Shown piece by piece: positions 39,507 through 44,282 of a stretch of 64,000 bases of DNA. The notes under the pieces were generated by a model. The model was not told the DNA's origin, did no database searches, and saw only the letters and a list, made by a program, of their open reading frames with translations. Numbering within the stretch: the first letter of the stretch is position 1; each line of letters starts with the position of its first letter. A program made the position numbers and the translations under genes. Source of the stretch: Microbacterium abyssi (lineage in GTDB: Bacteria; Actinomycetota; Actinomycetes; Actinomycetales; Microbacteriaceae); contig NZ_CP063815.1 of the NCBI RefSeq assembly GCF_015277895.1, positions 3,162,001-3,226,000 on the forward strand, in the 5' to 3' direction.

Positions 39507-39599
39507 GTGATGTTCTCCTTCTCTGTGAGTGATTACAGTCAACGCCCTCGCACCGCCGCGAGGGAAGGCACGTGATCGGCAGCGCGGCGAGCGGACCGC

Positions 39600-39652: not shown

Positions 39653-39667
39653 TCTGCTCTGAGCAGA
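39653..39667. promoter_or_regulatory. PopR-type box before the popR-like gene
   Basis: TCTGCT-CTG-AGCAGA is a perfect palindrome matching TCTGCY-N3-RGCAGA. The Streptomyces PopR box, as I recall it from the clpP3/clpP4 literature, is TCTGCC-N3-GGCAGA. It lies 40 bases before the ATG. A -10-like TAGCGT (39697-39702) stands 29 bases downstream, so the box covers the -35 to -60 region, suiting an activator. Confidence 0.7.
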
Positions 39668-39707
39668 ACGGCTGTCGCGGCAACCGATCAGGGGGTTAGC
39701 GTGAGGC

Positions 39708-40061
39708 ATGGCCGAGATCGTCCGATTCCCCCGCCCGCAGCATCCGCGGCTCCGTCCGCAGAACGGGCCCGAGCCGCTTTGGCGCCACCTGCTCGGGGAT
39801 CAGCTCCGACGCCGTCGGCACGAGCGCGCGGAGACGCTCACCGAGACGGCCGAGCAGGCCGGCGTCTCTCCCCAGTACCTCTCCGAGGTCGAGCGCGGGC
39901 TGAAGGAGCCGTCCAGCGAGATGATCGCCGCGATCGCGGGTGCGCTCGACACCTCGCTCATCGAGCTCACGAGCGACGTGGCCGACGAGCTGCGCACGGC
40001 CGCGGCTCCCGCATCCGCCATGGTCTCGGCCGGCCGCGGGGCGCTCGCTCTCGCGGCTTGA
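39708..40061 (+). CDS. PopR/ClgR-like XRE-family regulator of clp genes
   Basis: A 117-residue regulator with one XRE helix-turn-helix (about residues 30-72): LLGDQLRRRRHERAETLTETAEQAGVSPQYLSEVERGLKEPSSEMIAAIAGAL. The SPQYLSEVERGLKEPSSE string is the hallmark of the ClgR/PopR group, which activates clpP operons in actinobacteria. The protein ends LALAA; C-terminal Ala-Ala is the degron by which ClpP destroys PopR in Streptomyces. It faces the clpP pair tail-to-tail, and the same palindrome occurs before both units. TAGCGT lies five bases before the ATG, so it is probably leaderless. Confidence 0.85.
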   Translation: MAEIVRFPRPQHPRLRPQNGPEPLWRHLLGDQLRRRRHERAETLTETAEQAGVSPQYLSEVERGLKEPSSEMIAAIAGALDTSLIELTSDVADELRTAAAPASAMVSAGRGALALAA

Positions 40062-40080
40062 TCCGATCCCGAACCGGCCT

Positions 40081-40127
40081 CGCGCGTGACCGCGCCGACA
40101 CTTTCGCGCGTGACCGCGCCGACACTT
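40081..40127. repeat. tandem repeat, two 24-bp units
   Basis: CGCGCGTGACCGCGCCGACA followed by CTT occurs at 40081-40103 and again at 40105-40127, in the gap between the popR-like gene and clpP. No ribosome site or open frame accompanies it. Confidence 0.8.
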
Positions 40128-40138
40128 CGGGGCCTCGA

Positions 40139-40183
40139 GCACGGACGTCGGACGGAGGCCGTGAATAGGTCCGACGTCCGTGC
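40139..40183. terminator. bidirectional terminator between popR-like gene and clpP
   Basis: GCACGGACGTCGGAC (40139-40153) and GTCCGACGTCCGTGC (40169-40183) are perfect 15-bp complements with a 15-base loop, midway between convergent stops at 40061 and 40208. Confidence 0.8.
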
Positions 40184-40207
40184 ATCCGGCCCCCAGAATG
40201 TCGACTA

Positions 40208-40801
40208 TCAGGCCGCCCGCTCCCCCAGCACGGTGTCGATCAGGCCATAGTCCAGGGCAGCGGAGGCCGTGAACACCCGATCCCGGTCGGTGTCGGCGCG
40301 CAGAGTCTCGACTGTGCGACCGGTGTGCCGGGCCAGGATCGACTCCAGATCGGAGCGCACCCGCACGACTTCGTCGGCGGCGATGATCAGGTCGGGGATC
40401 GCGCCGCGCGACTGTCCGGCCGGCTGGTGCAGCACGATTCGCGCGTGCGTGAGCGCCGCTCGCTGCCCCGTCGTCCCGGCCGCCACGAGAAGCGCTGCCG
40501 GCCCGATCGCCTGGCCGACGACGGTCGTCGCGACCGCCGGGCGGATGTGCTGCATCGTGTCGTAGATCGCCAGCGCTGCGCCGGGATCGCCACCCTCGCT
40601 GTTGATGTAGAACTGGATGCCGGTGTCCGGGCTGTCGGCATCCAGATGCAGCAGCTGCGCGATCAGCGCGTTCGCGACTCCCGCGTCGATGCCGGTGCCG
40701 AGGTAGATCACGCGTTCGGCGAGCAGGTGCGAGTAGACGTCCATGACGCGCTCGCCCCTGGGATGCTGCGCGATGACGTTCGGGATCGTGTAGCTGCTCA
40801 C
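40208..40801 (-). CDS. ClpP-family subunit lacking the catalytic serine
   Basis: A 197-residue ClpP paralogue, second in its operon. Where active ClpP reads GQAASMGA, this reads GQAIGPAA: residue 100 is Gly (codon GGG), not Ser, while His125 (VLHQP) and the Asp of TDRDRVF (174) remain. It also keeps INSEGGDPGAALAIYDTM and the C-terminal LDYGLIDTV. It probably forms mixed rings with the adjacent active subunit, comparable with plant and cyanobacterial ClpR. It overlaps the upstream clpP by four bases (ATGA). It might alternatively bind adaptors or ATPases. Confidence 0.88.
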   Translation of the reverse strand: MSSYTIPNVIAQHPRGERVMDVYSHLLAERVIYLGTGIDAGVANALIAQLLHLDADSPDTGIQFYINSEGGDPGAALAIYDTMQHIRPAVATTVVGQAIGPAALLVAAGTTGQRAALTHARIVLHQPAGQSRGAIPDLIIAADEVVRVRSDLESILARHTGRTVETLRADTDRDRVFTASAALDYGLIDTVLGERAA

Positions 40802-41442
40802 GACTTCGCTCCTTCCTGCGCGGATGCCCCGGCATCCGCCCCCAATCCGACCCGCGCGCGGCGGCGGGGCATGACGTCGGCGATCGATGTGACGATCTCG
40901 TCGATGAATCCGTACTGCTTCGCCTCATCGGCCGTGTACCAGCGGTCGTGCAGCGAGTCCTCGAAGATGCGCTCCACCGGCTGACCGGTGTCATCGGAGA
41001 TGAGTCCGAGGACGGTGTCGCGCATCTGTCGCAGGTCGTCGGCCTGCACCTCGATCTCGACGGCGGAGCCGCCGATGCCCGCCGATCCCTGATGCATGAG
41101 TATGCGCGCGTGAGGCAGCGCGCGGCGCTTGCCCTTCGTGCCTCCGGAGAGCAGGAACTGCCCTGCGCTGGCGGCGACTCCCAGTGCGAGGGTGGCGACA
41201 TCGTTGGGGACCAGGTTCATGATGTCGCGGATCGCCAGCATCGACGGCACAGAGCCGCCCGGGGAGTGGATCCACAGGGCGATATCGGCGATGGGGTCTT
41301 CGGCCGACAGCGTCAGCAGCTGGGTCATCAGCAGCGTTCCGTTGTCGTCGTCGAGGGCGCCGTCGAGCACCAGGATGCGGTCGTGGAACAGGGCGCGTCT
41401 GGCCTCGGGGCCGAACTGCGGGATGGGGTTCTCTTCATTCAT
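40798..41442 (-). CDS. clpP: ATP-dependent Clp protease proteolytic subunit
   Basis: A 214-residue ClpP with a complete triad: Ser92 in GVAASAGQFLL, His117 in RILMHQG, Asp166 in LHDRWYTADEA. HSPGGSVPSMLAIRDIM provides the oxyanion-hole strand. It lacks the long propeptide of housekeeping ClpP1, and the C-terminal ~30 residues (VMPRRRARVGLGADAGASAQ) are an unusual basic-to-polar tail. Translation is coupled to the inactive paralogue. A perfect PopR-type box lies 56 bases upstream, so this is an inducible accessory ClpP pair rather than the housekeeping one. Confidence 0.92.
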   Translation of the reverse strand: MNEENPIPQFGPEARRALFHDRILVLDGALDDDNGTLLMTQLLTLSAEDPIADIALWIHSPGGSVPSMLAIRDIMNLVPNDVATLALGVAASAGQFLLSGGTKGKRRALPHARILMHQGSAGIGGSAVEIEVQADDLRQMRDTVLGLISDDTGQPVERIFEDSLHDRWYTADEAKQYGFIDEIVTSIADVMPRRRARVGLGADAGASAQEGAKS

Positions 41443-41497
41443 GCGTTCAGCCTGCGCCTACCCGCACGCCCCCGCGTCGGAATCTGCTCAGAGCCGT

Positions 41498-41512
41498 TCT
41501 GCCGTGGGCAGA
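41498..41512. promoter_or_regulatory. PopR-type box before the clpP operon
   Basis: TCTGCC-GTG-GGCAGA is a perfect inverted repeat and an exact match to TCTGCC-N3-GGCAGA. Next to it, TCTGCTCAGAGC (41483-41494) looks like a half-degenerate second site. The whole stretch resembles the promoter region of the popR-like gene (shared CAGAACGGC and GAGCAGA strings). Confidence 0.8.
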
Positions 41513-41575: not shown

Positions 41576-43129
41576 CTATGCGAGCGCGAGAGCCCTCCGG
41601 TGGCTGATGCGGTGACCGATCCAGAAGCCGATGGCGATCAGACCGGCCAGCGCGGTGCCCAGCATCCAGGGAAGCATCGACGGTGCGGCGCCCGCGGTCG
41701 CCGTCGCCAGCGTGCCCGACCCGTCGGCGATGAGACCGTTGCCGGCCGCGAGGTCTGCGGCGCCCGCGGCGAGCGTCCCGCCTCCCTCGGCGAGTGCGCC
41801 CGATCCTTCGGATACCGTCGCCGCCCCCTCGGCCAGCGTGCCGATGCCGGTGTCGAGATCGGCGGCTCCGCGCTGCAGAGTGGCGGTCCCTTCGGCGAGC
41901 CTCGCCGCACCGTCGTCGAGGCTCGCGGCGCCCGAGTTCAGTCGTGCGGAACCTGCGTGCAGCGTCGACGCGCCCTCGGAGAGATCCGACAGTCCGCCCG
42001 TGAGCGTGGCTGCCCCAGATGCGAGCTCGGCCGTCCCTGTCTTCAGCGGCTGCAGGCCCGTGGCGAGCTGTTCGGCGCCTGAGGACAGCTTGGCCGTGCC
42101 CGCCTTCAGCGTCTTGGCGCCCTTGAGCAGCGCCGGTGCCCCCTTCTCGGTGTCGACCAGTGCGACGGTGCCCGGCCAGCCCTTCGAGGCATCGCCGGTC
42201 ACGATCGCGTTCACCGCTCCCGCGACCTGCTGTGCGCCACCCGCCGCAGCGATCGTGCCTTTCGCGAGCTGCGGTGCAGTCTTGGCCGCCCCTGCGATGC
42301 CGTCCACTTGAGCATCGACTTCGGCGGCGAGCGTGGCGAGTCGCTGCAGCTGCGCATCTGCGGGGTTCGCAGCGGCGAGGTCGGCGAGATCGGCGGCCAG
42401 CTGCTGTGAGTTCGCCGGGGCGCCGGTCGCCGCTGCTGTGATCGCCGCAGCTGCACCGTCGCTGGCGAGGGTCTGCAGCTCAGGGGTAACGGCGTCCGAG
42501 AGCTGCGCGCTGAATCCGCTTGCCGCCCCGAGCACAGCGCTGGCGTACTGGTGTGCTCCGGCAACTCCTGCCGAGAGGCCCGTGACACCATCGAGAACCT
42601 GCTCGGCACCGGCATCCACGTCCTGCGCGCCGCCGGAGACCTTCTGCGCGCCATCGATCGCCGACCGGGCGCCAACATCAGCCTGCAACAGGCCCGAGGT
42701 CAGCCGCTGCGCCCCGGCCGCTACGGACCGCGCCCCCTCGCTCACCCGGCTCGCCCCCGATTCAGCACTGGATGCACCGACGGCGAGAGTGTCTGCCCCC
42801 GCCGCAAGAGACGCCGCGCCGGTCGAAGCGCTGAGCGCACCGTCGGCGACTTTCTGCGAACCGTCATGGGCACTCGCTGCACCTTCGGCGAGCTCCTCCG
42901 TGCCGGCGGCGAGCTTGTCGGCACCCGTCGTGAGGTCCGCCGCACCGGCGGCCAGATCGGACGAGCCGTCCTTCGCCGCGACGGTGCCATCGGACAGTTC
43001 AGCCGCACCCGCGGCGATCTTGCCTGTGGTCACGAAGAAGAGGATGACCATCGCCGCAAGCAGGATGCTGAGGACGATTGCGGTGATGCGCATGCCGTTT
43101 CCGTGCGCGTGGGATGTAGAACTCGTCAT
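41576..43129 (-). CDS. membrane protein with extended heptad (L-x-x-G-A) repeats
   Basis: A 517-residue protein with one N-terminal helix (TAIVLSILLAAMVILFFV, ~16-33), about 440 residues of seven-residue repeats such as LAAGAADLTTGADKLAAGTEEL, and a C-terminal helix (MLGTALAGLIAIGFWIG, ~488-504) with a basic tail. The repeat matches the YhgE/Pip and MmpL-type 'heptad' ectodomain, but here no ABC-2 or RND domain is attached. It should form a long helical rod spanning wall or periplasm. Function unknown. TGGAG precedes the ATG at 43129. It is divergent from the manganese-type transporter across two operator-like elements. Confidence 0.8.
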   Translation of the reverse strand: MTSSTSHAHGNGMRITAIVLSILLAAMVILFFVTTGKIAAGAAELSDGTVAAKDGSSDLAAGAADLTTGADKLAAGTEELAEGAASAHDGSQKVADGALSASTGAASLAAGADTLAVGASSAESGASRVSEGARSVAAGAQRLTSGLLQADVGARSAIDGAQKVSGGAQDVDAGAEQVLDGVTGLSAGVAGAHQYASAVLGAASGFSAQLSDAVTPELQTLASDGAAAAITAAATGAPANSQQLAADLADLAAANPADAQLQRLATLAAEVDAQVDGIAGAAKTAPQLAKGTIAAAGGAQQVAGAVNAIVTGDASKGWPGTVALVDTEKGAPALLKGAKTLKAGTAKLSSGAEQLATGLQPLKTGTAELASGAATLTGGLSDLSEGASTLHAGSARLNSGAASLDDGAARLAEGTATLQRGAADLDTGIGTLAEGAATVSEGSGALAEGGGTLAAGAADLAAGNGLIADGSGTLATATAGAAPSMLPWMLGTALAGLIAIGFWIGHRISHRRALALA

Positions 43130-43268
43130 TGAGGACTCCAAGGGTCGGTGGCGTCGTCGCCATCGGTGAGCGTATGGCCGTCCTGCTCGCACGCCCCGGA
43201 CTTTGCGCATGGAAACCAGGTTTCTCTTCAGGTGGTACTCAGTTTTATGTCGCTAGTCCACAAACGTG

Positions 43269-43314: not shown

Positions 43315-43360
43315 TTGTTTTCGGCACGCCTAAAAGCTAGATTTTCGGTGTGCCTAAAAG
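43315..43360 (+). promoter_or_regulatory. two tandem metal-repressor palindromes with leaderless promoter
   Basis: TTTTCGGCACGCCTAAAAG (43318-43336) and TTTTCGGTGTGCCTAAAAG (43342-43360) differ at three bases, are each nearly palindromic (TTTT-N-GGC...GCC-N-AAAA) and are spaced 24 bp apart. They resemble DtxR/MntR-family sites. The second covers the GTG start (43350). Between and over them lie -35-like TTGTTT (43315-43320) and -10 TAGATT (43338-43343), 17 bp apart, with the start codon six bases past the -10. Confidence 0.8.
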
Positions 43361-44282
43361 TGTTCCTCGGGGGCTCGCGCTCGTCGCGGTGGCAGCCGCC
43401 GCTCTCACCGGGTGCACGGGCCCGGATCCCGCGTCGCCCGACGACCGTCCTGTCGTTCTGACGACCTTCACGGTGCTCGCCGACATCGCGCAGAACGTCG
43501 CCGGCGATCACCTGCGCGTGGAGTCGATCACCAAGGCCGGCGCCGAGATCCACGGGTATGAGCCGACCCCCGGCGACGTGCGCCAGGCCACCGACGCCGA
43601 ACTGATCCTGGACAACGGCCTGAATCTGGAGGCCTGGTTCGCGCAGTTCGTCGACTCGGTGCACGTGCCGCACGTCGTCGTCTCGGACGGCGTCGAGGTG
43701 ATGGACATCACGGAGGACGCGTACGCCGGCACGCCCAACCCGCACGCCTGGATGAGTCCACTGAACGTGCAGCTATACGTCGACAACATCGCCACCGCGT
43801 TCGCCGAGCTCGACCCATCGCACGCCGAGGAGTTCGCCGCGAACGCCGACGCGTACAAGAGCGAACTACAGCAGGTGCAGGACGATCTGGTCGCCGAACT
43901 GGCCGTGCTGCCGCAGAGCCAGCGAGCACTGGTGACGTGCGAGGGTGCGTTCTCGTACCTCGCACGCGACGCCGATCTCGCAGAGGCGTACATCTGGCCC
44001 GTGAACGCCGAGCAGCAGGCGACGCCGCGGCAGATCGCCGCGACCATCGAGTTCGTGAACGACAACGACGTGCCGGCGGTGTTCTGCGAGTCGACCGTGT
44101 CGGATCGTGCCATGCAGCAGGTGGTCGAGGCAACCGGCGCCGACTTCGGCGGCATCCTCTACGTCGACTCGCTGTCGACGCCCGACGGCCCGGTGCCCAC
44201 TTACCTCGACCTGCTCCGGCACGACGCCGACGCGATCGTCGCCGGCCTCACCGCGCGAGCGGACGGGGCAAGCGGATCATGA
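43350..44282 (+). CDS. manganese/iron-type ABC transporter substrate-binding lipoprotein
   Basis: A 310-residue cluster 9 binding protein of the PsaA/MntA/SitA kind. Lipobox LTGC at about residues 19-22. Metal-ligand segments: TTFTVLADIAQNVAGD, EIHGYEPTPGDVRQ (first His), NPHAWMSPLNVQLYV (second His), CEGAFSYLARD and the Glu/Asp ligands in VFCESTVSDRAM and LYVDSLS. It lacks the His-rich loop of ZnuA, favouring Mn2+ or Fe2+ over zinc. The start is GTG at 43350; the mRNA appears leaderless and under a double operator. Confidence 0.9.
   Translation: MPKSVPRGLALVAVAAAALTGCTGPDPASPDDRPVVLTTFTVLADIAQNVAGDHLRVESITKAGAEIHGYEPTPGDVRQATDAELILDNGLNLEAWFAQFVDSVHVPHVVVSDGVEVMDITEDAYAGTPNPHAWMSPLNVQLYVDNIATAFAELDPSHAEEFAANADAYKSELQQVQDDLVAELAVLPQSQRALVTCEGAFSYLARDADLAEAYIWPVNAEQQATPRQIAATIEFVNDNDVPAVFCESTVSDRAMQQVVEATGADFGGILYVDSLSTPDGPVPTYLDLLRHDADAIVAGLTARADGASGS

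Follow-up and report, generated by a model that had tools for sequence, protein, structure and literature searches.

A small regulator gene facing a second pair of clpP genes, with boxes of one pattern before both transcription units, raises the question of whether this locus encodes a spare Clp protease under its own feedback control. The preliminary description, by analogy with Streptomyces, had proposed such a loop, with the regulator also binding its own promoter. We addressed this question in the window (the whole 64,000-nucleotide stretch of Microbacterium abyssi DNA analysed here), in the complete genome to which it belongs (3.27 Mb, one contig), and in related loci. By protein comparison, the closest named relatives are Microbacterium. 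Judged by its genes and boxes, the locus is an actinobacterial popR-clpP3-clpP4 module, which is known in kind; as a variant it merits testing for its self-box, for a tail resembling the tmRNA tag and, most of all, for a second subunit that was disarmed repeatedly. We assign a probability of roughly 70% to the reading that it is a PopR-ClpP3-ClpP4 backup protease in a self-activating form, i.e., a latch driving a spare core.

Gene organization and regulator

The module comprises the following genes and associated elements.

39708..40061, + strand: popR-like regulator gene, 117 aa, ClgR-family HTH (ORF list; Pfam HTH_31/HTH_3)
40044..40058, + strand: codons for the C-terminal LALAA, presumed Clp degron (translation; tail conservation)
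40129..40193, no strand: inverted repeat between the convergent genes, 25-nt arms, 84% complementary (repeat search)
40208..40801, − strand: second clpP (clpP4-like), with Gly at the catalytic Ser position (GQAIGPAA) and retained His and Asp (alignment)
40798..41442, − strand: first clpP (clpP3-like), Ser-His-Asp triad intact (Pfam PF00574; triad alignment)

The two clpP genes (41442-40798 and 40801-40208) overlap by 4 bases, and the regulator gene is convergent to them, in agreement with the earlier account of a coupled pair on the opposite strand. The inverted repeat is likely a terminator shared by the regulator gene and the clpP pair. The genome contains four clpP genes, arranged as the module pair and a housekeeping pair; thus, a second clpP operon is present.

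The proposed ClgR/PopR-type identity of the regulator was borne out by Pfam, by the NCBIfam ClgR model NF041677 and by the best match among known structures, which was ClgR (PDB 3f51, E 1.9e-15). The score against NF041677 (68.9 bits) was under the cut-off of 170, so that the ClgR equivalog score was not reached. The regulator resembles the ClgR proteins (PDB 3f51 and 5woq; NF041677) in HTH fold family and, according to the literature, in having Clp genes as targets, whereas the genome's own ClgR-like protein is encoded separately (C1:1450897), is 43% identical to the regulator and lacks an Ala-Ala end.

The C-terminal LALAA was present in the ORF translation, as first read. The tmRNA tag of the same genome, AETKRNDFALAA, ends in FALAA, and by this comparison the tail mimics the end of the tag. 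Among 172 relatives, the regulator ended in AA in 167 and in LAA in 162, following a linker of variable length. According to passages of two papers (PMC9765437, PMC9775585), PopR and ClgR are in vitro substrates of ClpXP1P2, and two terminal alanines are the mark of such Clp substrates.

Boxes at the two promoters

The putative promoter elements on the two sides of the module were as follows.

39653..39667, + strand: self-box TCTGCTCTGAGCAGA, exact match, 55 bp upstream of the regulator ATG
39697..39702, + strand: -10-like TAGCGT, 5 nt before the regulator ATG
41449..41454, − strand: putative, weak -10-like CAGGCT, 6 nt before the clpP ATG
41483..41497, − strand: proximal clpP operator box, ACGGCTCTGAGCAGA on the − strand, 8 of 10 fixed bases, abutting the distal box, 55 bp to the ATG
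41498..41512, − strand: distal clpP operator box, TCTGCCGTGGGCAGA (− strand TCTGCCCACGGCAGA), exact match, 70 bp upstream of the ATG

Both boxes of the preliminary description were thus recovered as exact matches. Its single box before the clpP operon stood at 41498-41512, but the operator is composed of two abutting boxes, the second of which (41483-41497) is degenerate in its left half only. In most same-genus loci, TATCGT or TAGCGT/TACCGT occupied the -10 position of the regulator, and GATGCT that of clpP. The location of the proximal boxes (-55 to -41), together with -10-like elements 5 or 6 nt before the ATG, suggests leaderless messages and an activator placed just upstream of the polymerase site.

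A scan of the whole 3.27 Mb genome for TCTGCY-N3-RGCAGA returned exactly two sites, namely, the regulator and clpP promoters, and 100 shuffles of the window contained no exact box. The earlier description had looked to such a scan to set the boxes apart from chance occurrence; the count itself does not do so, since a reversed-pattern control occurred three times, whereas the placement at 55 and 70 bp before both starts would arise by chance with a probability of about 1e-9 (rough arithmetic for two random sites and two 100-bp targets). One-mismatch sites were likewise not enriched genome-wide (36 additional sites, compared with 92 for the control pattern), and over-representation of the box was rejected on these two counts. 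Counting boxes is thus uninformative because of the three control occurrences, and position and conservation carry the weight.

Comparison with the Streptomyces module

According to a review (PMC9775585), the PopR target of S. lividans is TCTGCC-3N-GGCGAATCTGCC-3N-GGCAGA. Plasmid p1 of S. fungicidicus carries two clpP genes and a convergent HTH gene, with TCTGCCCGTGGCGAA followed directly by TCTGCCACGGGCAGA before the first clpP, and the product of the HTH gene is 59% identical to the window regulator across 49 aa. Since the S. fungicidicus locus combines the published operator with the same gene order, the module in the window is of the same kind as the studied Streptomyces module. Relative to PopR-clpP3-clpP4 of S. 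lividans, as described in passages of PMC9775585, PMC9765437 and PMC12607617, it shares the regulator family, the Ala-Ala tail and a separate housekeeping clpP1P2; the convergent order (as in S. fungicidicus) and the two abutting TCTGCC-N3-GGCRRA boxes before clpP3 are also common to both. The window module differs in its strong self-box, which is at background level in the Streptomyces-type loci, and in the triad residue lost from the second ClpP, Ser in the window and His in those loci.

A tandem clpP operator, counted when both abutting boxes scored at least 7 of 10, was found at 27 of 1600 random places. All 19 Microbacterium loci holding the pair had it, at 70 and 55 bp, as did 20 of 22 additional loci of the genus read by eye. 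Among other genera, it occurred in 70 of the 76 named loci and in all 17 Streptomyces-type loci (the S. fungicidicus locus and 16 loci assigned to this type by 81–91% identity in the second ClpP). The tandem is not universal: two sets of other class loci had it in 3 of 13 and 20 of 34, respectively. Most of the remainder (10 of 13 and 14 of 34) retained one strong box, and at least one box of 9 or 10 was found in 29 of the 34. The distance from the proximal box to the clpP start, 55 bp in the window module, ranged from 48 to 157 bp in the Streptomyces-type loci. In Nocardioides-type loci (L091, L094, L097, L105, L115 and L119), the clpP boxes were not abutting and stood 20 bp apart, start to start (-56 and -76).

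Within the genus, 41 genomes gave a strong match (E < 1e-18, a cut-off set by us), and the regulator loci of 30 of them were fetched; the clpP pair lay outside the fetched stretch in 11 of these 30. In all 30, a self-box with zero or one of the 10 fixed bases off lay 55–56 bp before the regulator start, matching the proximal clpP box in its spacing. Of the 75 named loci of other genera, 70 had a self-box scoring at least 8 of 10 between -110 and -46, against a background of 459 in 4000 random 150-bp windows. In the Streptomyces-type loci, the best regulator-promoter score was 6–8 of 10 in 17 of 17, i.e., at background level, and a score of at least 8 was reached in only 18 of the 48 other class loci with a regulator (3 of 14, L158-L171, and 15 of 34). 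On these scores, a strong self-box characterizes the Microbacterium-like branch, is patchy in the other loci, and was rejected as a general feature of the module. Self-activation is thus not general and cannot be borrowed from S. lividans, and the Microbacterium module is probably a self-activating variant.

Self-regulation is the least secure step of this reading, and it is not known from Streptomyces in the parts of the literature searched. The passages found there on PopR and ClpP4 mention neither popR self-regulation nor a broken ClpP4 triad. The same search yielded no account of popR in Microbacterium, a result that says little about the printed literature as a whole. At many Streptosporangiales popR promoters (L056-L068 and others), sites are mixed, with one half PopR-like and the other ClgR-like, as in TCTGCTCTGCGCGAA.

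Co-occurrence of the regulator and the spare pair

In a same-genus set of 89 genomes, including the present one and several incomplete drafts (e.g., G039, 44%), we recorded the regulator (E < 1e-18) and the presence of at least four clpP genes. Forty genomes had both and 47 had neither; one (G067) had the regulator only and one (G079) had the genes only. The spare pair therefore accompanied 40 of 41 regulators and occurred in 1 of 48 genomes lacking one (Fisher p 5e-23, uncorrected for kinship).

The locus of G067 (C1:1865500-1869500) carries a regulator with a perfect self-box and an ALAA tail, and only two clpP genes were found in that genome. A second perfect box in that genome seems to lie inside coding sequence. 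The locus of G079 (C22:53500-57500) has a clpP pair with a poor distal box, and its genome gave no strong regulator match; the first ORF extends to 381 aa, perhaps through a frameshift. In L242, one of the 11 same-genus loci whose clpP pair lay outside the fetched stretch, a gene named LigD-like by eye lies on the other strand between the clpP pair and the regulator.

The proposed switch

In the proposed switch, the housekeeping ClpP1P2 would remove the regulator via its tmRNA-tag-like Leu-Ala-Ala end, and failure of ClpP1P2 would allow the regulator to build up. The accumulated regulator would bind its own single box and the paired clpP boxes, each just upstream of a promoter, and the resulting positive-feedback latch would cause the spare ClpP core to be made. 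Within this core, the first subunit would cut, while the second, without a nucleophile, would serve structure or unfoldase docking. Latching would follow from a regulator switching on its own gene while being cleared by the very protease for which it provides the backup, and the tail is consistent with this. The genes, the boxes with their spacing, the tail, the co-occurrence and the lost Ser are seen in the sequence; that the regulator binds the boxes, acts as an activator and not a repressor and is degraded, and that a latch and distinct subunit roles result, is inferred. The earlier reading of a feedback loop as in Streptomyces is supported at each step that can be tested in sequence, i.e., by the regulator family, the two-promoter box, the conservation of box, spacing and tail, the co-occurrence, and the matching Streptomyces operator. 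The patchiness of the self-box outside the Microbacterium-like branch slightly reduces our confidence in the self-activating explanation.

The self-box might instead be a repressor site, in which case the regulator would activate the clpP operon and damp its own gene, giving a graded response and not a latch. Many small HTH regulators repress their own genes, and the regulator promoter has a single box instead of two. In the genus, however, this box keeps the 55–56 bp spacing of the proximal clpP box and precedes the -10-like element without covering it, and we consider self-repression unlikely.

Self-activation is the step that would turn the circuit into a switch, and the module extends the classic Streptomyces circuit to a smaller-genome genus with four, not five or more, clpP genes. 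The module is also relevant to how cells may escape antibiotics aimed at Clp, ADEP among them; ClpP3P4 is reported to be insensitive to ADEP in a passage of PMC12607617.

Catalytic triads of the spare core

The second ClpP reads GQAIGPAA where the housekeeping ClpPs read GQAAS or GMAAS, and alignment with the housekeeping pair gave Ser-His-Asp for the first ClpP and Gly-His-Asp for the second. With Gly at the Ser position, the second ClpP is ClpR-like in the sense of a ClpP family protein without the full Ser-His-Asp triad. Like the cyanobacterial ClpP3-ClpR mixed core (PMC4673316), the module would combine active and catalytically dead ClpP subunits in one protease; it differs in being an actinobacterial, regulated backup in which the triad was lost through different residues by lineage.

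Across 183 loci, the first subunit was found in 171 and was Ser-His-Asp in all of them. The second subunit was found in 172, with 138 broken and 34 intact triads, proportions that are biased by the selection of loci, since the 80 named ones were picked for similarity to a query lacking Ser and the class loci for similarity to a Streptomyces protein; 28 of the 34 intact ones adjoin a regulator. At the Ser position, 80 named loci had 77 Ala, 2 Gly and 1 Ser. Gly was present in 19 of 19 aligned Microbacterium loci, and 22 more, read by motif, had 18 Gly, 2 Ala and 2 Ser, so that 2 of 41 Microbacterium second subunits keep Ser. In the Streptomyces-type loci, His was replaced by Gly in 17 of 17, one of which also had Asp replaced by Glu, and in one family Ser had become Glu and Asp had become Asn or His. 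Elsewhere, Ser was changed to Trp, His to Asp or Gln, and Asp to Gln, Thr or Ser. The disarming changes thus cover Ser to Ala, Gly, Glu or Trp, His to Gly, Asp or Gln, and Asp to Asn, His, Ser, Gln or Thr.

A quick tree of 97 rows (triad masked, no cyanobacterial rows) placed the PopR-linked second subunits in one group of 89 rows with a support of 100; within Actinomycetes, the second ClpP of the window belongs with these. Two rows in this group had no regulator in reach, and six intact, regulator-less rows fell outside it. The intact or broken state required at least six changes on this tree, which we read as five losses and one regain (Frigoribacterium), although 39 of its 94 inner branches are weak. 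Three Ser-bearing second ClpPs, namely, L109 (Frigoribacterium) and L230 and L232 (Microbacterium), may represent regain, transfer or a retained state; L109, the only one of them included in the tree, falls within the Ser-less group.

The first subunit is nearer to the upstream housekeeping ClpP (159 vs 120 bits), whereas for the second subunit the downstream housekeeping ClpP is the nearer one (152 vs 128 bits). In Streptomyces ClpP1P2, as stated in PMC9765437, ClpP1 cuts and ClpP2 docks the unfoldase, and a Ser-to-Ala change is tolerated in ClpP2 and not in ClpP1. Given these roles and the subunit-wise resemblance, such a split of tasks may have become fixed in the spare core. The triads and the tree point to a spare core that is probably half dead through repeated evolution.

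Mere decay of the second ClpP, leaving a spare core that is a homomer of the first subunit, would account for the loss of different triad residues in different lineages, as expected under relaxed constraint. This explanation is quite unlikely, given that the rest of the protein is well kept (mean column identity 74% in 15 divergent members), that the gene stays in the operon with its 4-base overlap, and that the 19 Microbacterium and 80 named rows keep His and Asp, with Ser alone changed. Under the preferred reading of a half-dead backup core, the repeated loss of catalysis in one spare subunit makes the question of why mixed ClpP cores exist directly testable.

A candidate third target and the ClgR question

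The strict box is confined to the two promoters, but a looser one is conserved upstream of an epimerase gene at another place in the genome. This degenerate one-mismatch box (C1:2171617-2171631; L264, G000:C1:2170617-2172617) stands 55 bp upstream of a gene of the NAD-dependent epimerase family, whose start is at C1:2171576. The gene was found in 56 of the 89 same-genus genomes. Of these, 32 carry popR, and 24 of the 32 had a box of at least 8 of 10 between -58 and -54; among the 24 genomes lacking popR, 4 had such a box (p 3e-5, uncorrected for kinship; background 25 of 6000). The epimerase gene is thus a candidate third target, and the regulon may exceed two promoters. A few other one-mismatch sites had a possible start codon at 55–56 bp, and the two of these that were viewed in detail (L025 and L260) were unconvincing. 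Beyond the epimerase site, a wider regulon drawn from the 36 one-mismatch sites, all of which were examined, was not upheld.

The degenerate boxes in 4 of 24 popR-less genomes suggest that another regulator may read such sites. GCGAA half sites were present at the epimerase promoter in 6 of these 24 genomes and resemble the ClgR motif GTTCGC-5N-GCG (given in PMC9775585), so that the two regulators may have such sites in common or one may have taken them over from the other. That the housekeeping regulator ClgR, and not the linked regulator, reads one or both module promoters is favoured by this closeness of half sites and by the TCTGC-N5-GCGAA type of site at many Streptosporangiales popR promoters, but is very unlikely, since the housekeeping clpP operon has a different sequence as its best candidate site (TATGCCGACGGCGAA), a ClgR-like second match occurs in popR-bearing and popR-less genomes alike while the spare pair tracks popR, and the Streptomyces operator is assigned to PopR (PMC9775585). 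Given the same TATGCCGACGGCGAA, the view that the window boxes derive from a ClgR-type site was not favoured either.

Returning to the self-activating backup protease, we tentatively propose, with less than even confidence, that the backup core of Actinomycetes is half dead, its second subunit having been disarmed several times independently since its catalysis would be useless or harmful, and that the Microbacterium-like activator would be a self-activating latch through which a brief Clp failure would lead to a different protease and a wider regulon, with the epimerase gene as third target.

Other features of the window

Just 3' of the regulator gene, positions 40080-40127 form a perfect 24-bp tandem duplication, and related GACACT...GGGG sequences occur near 39597 and 40117. 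The gene ahead of the clpP operon (41576-43135) encodes a long X-X-X-Leu-X-X-Gly heptad repeat protein, and a gene for a ZnuA-type zinc-uptake periplasmic component is located at 43350-44282.
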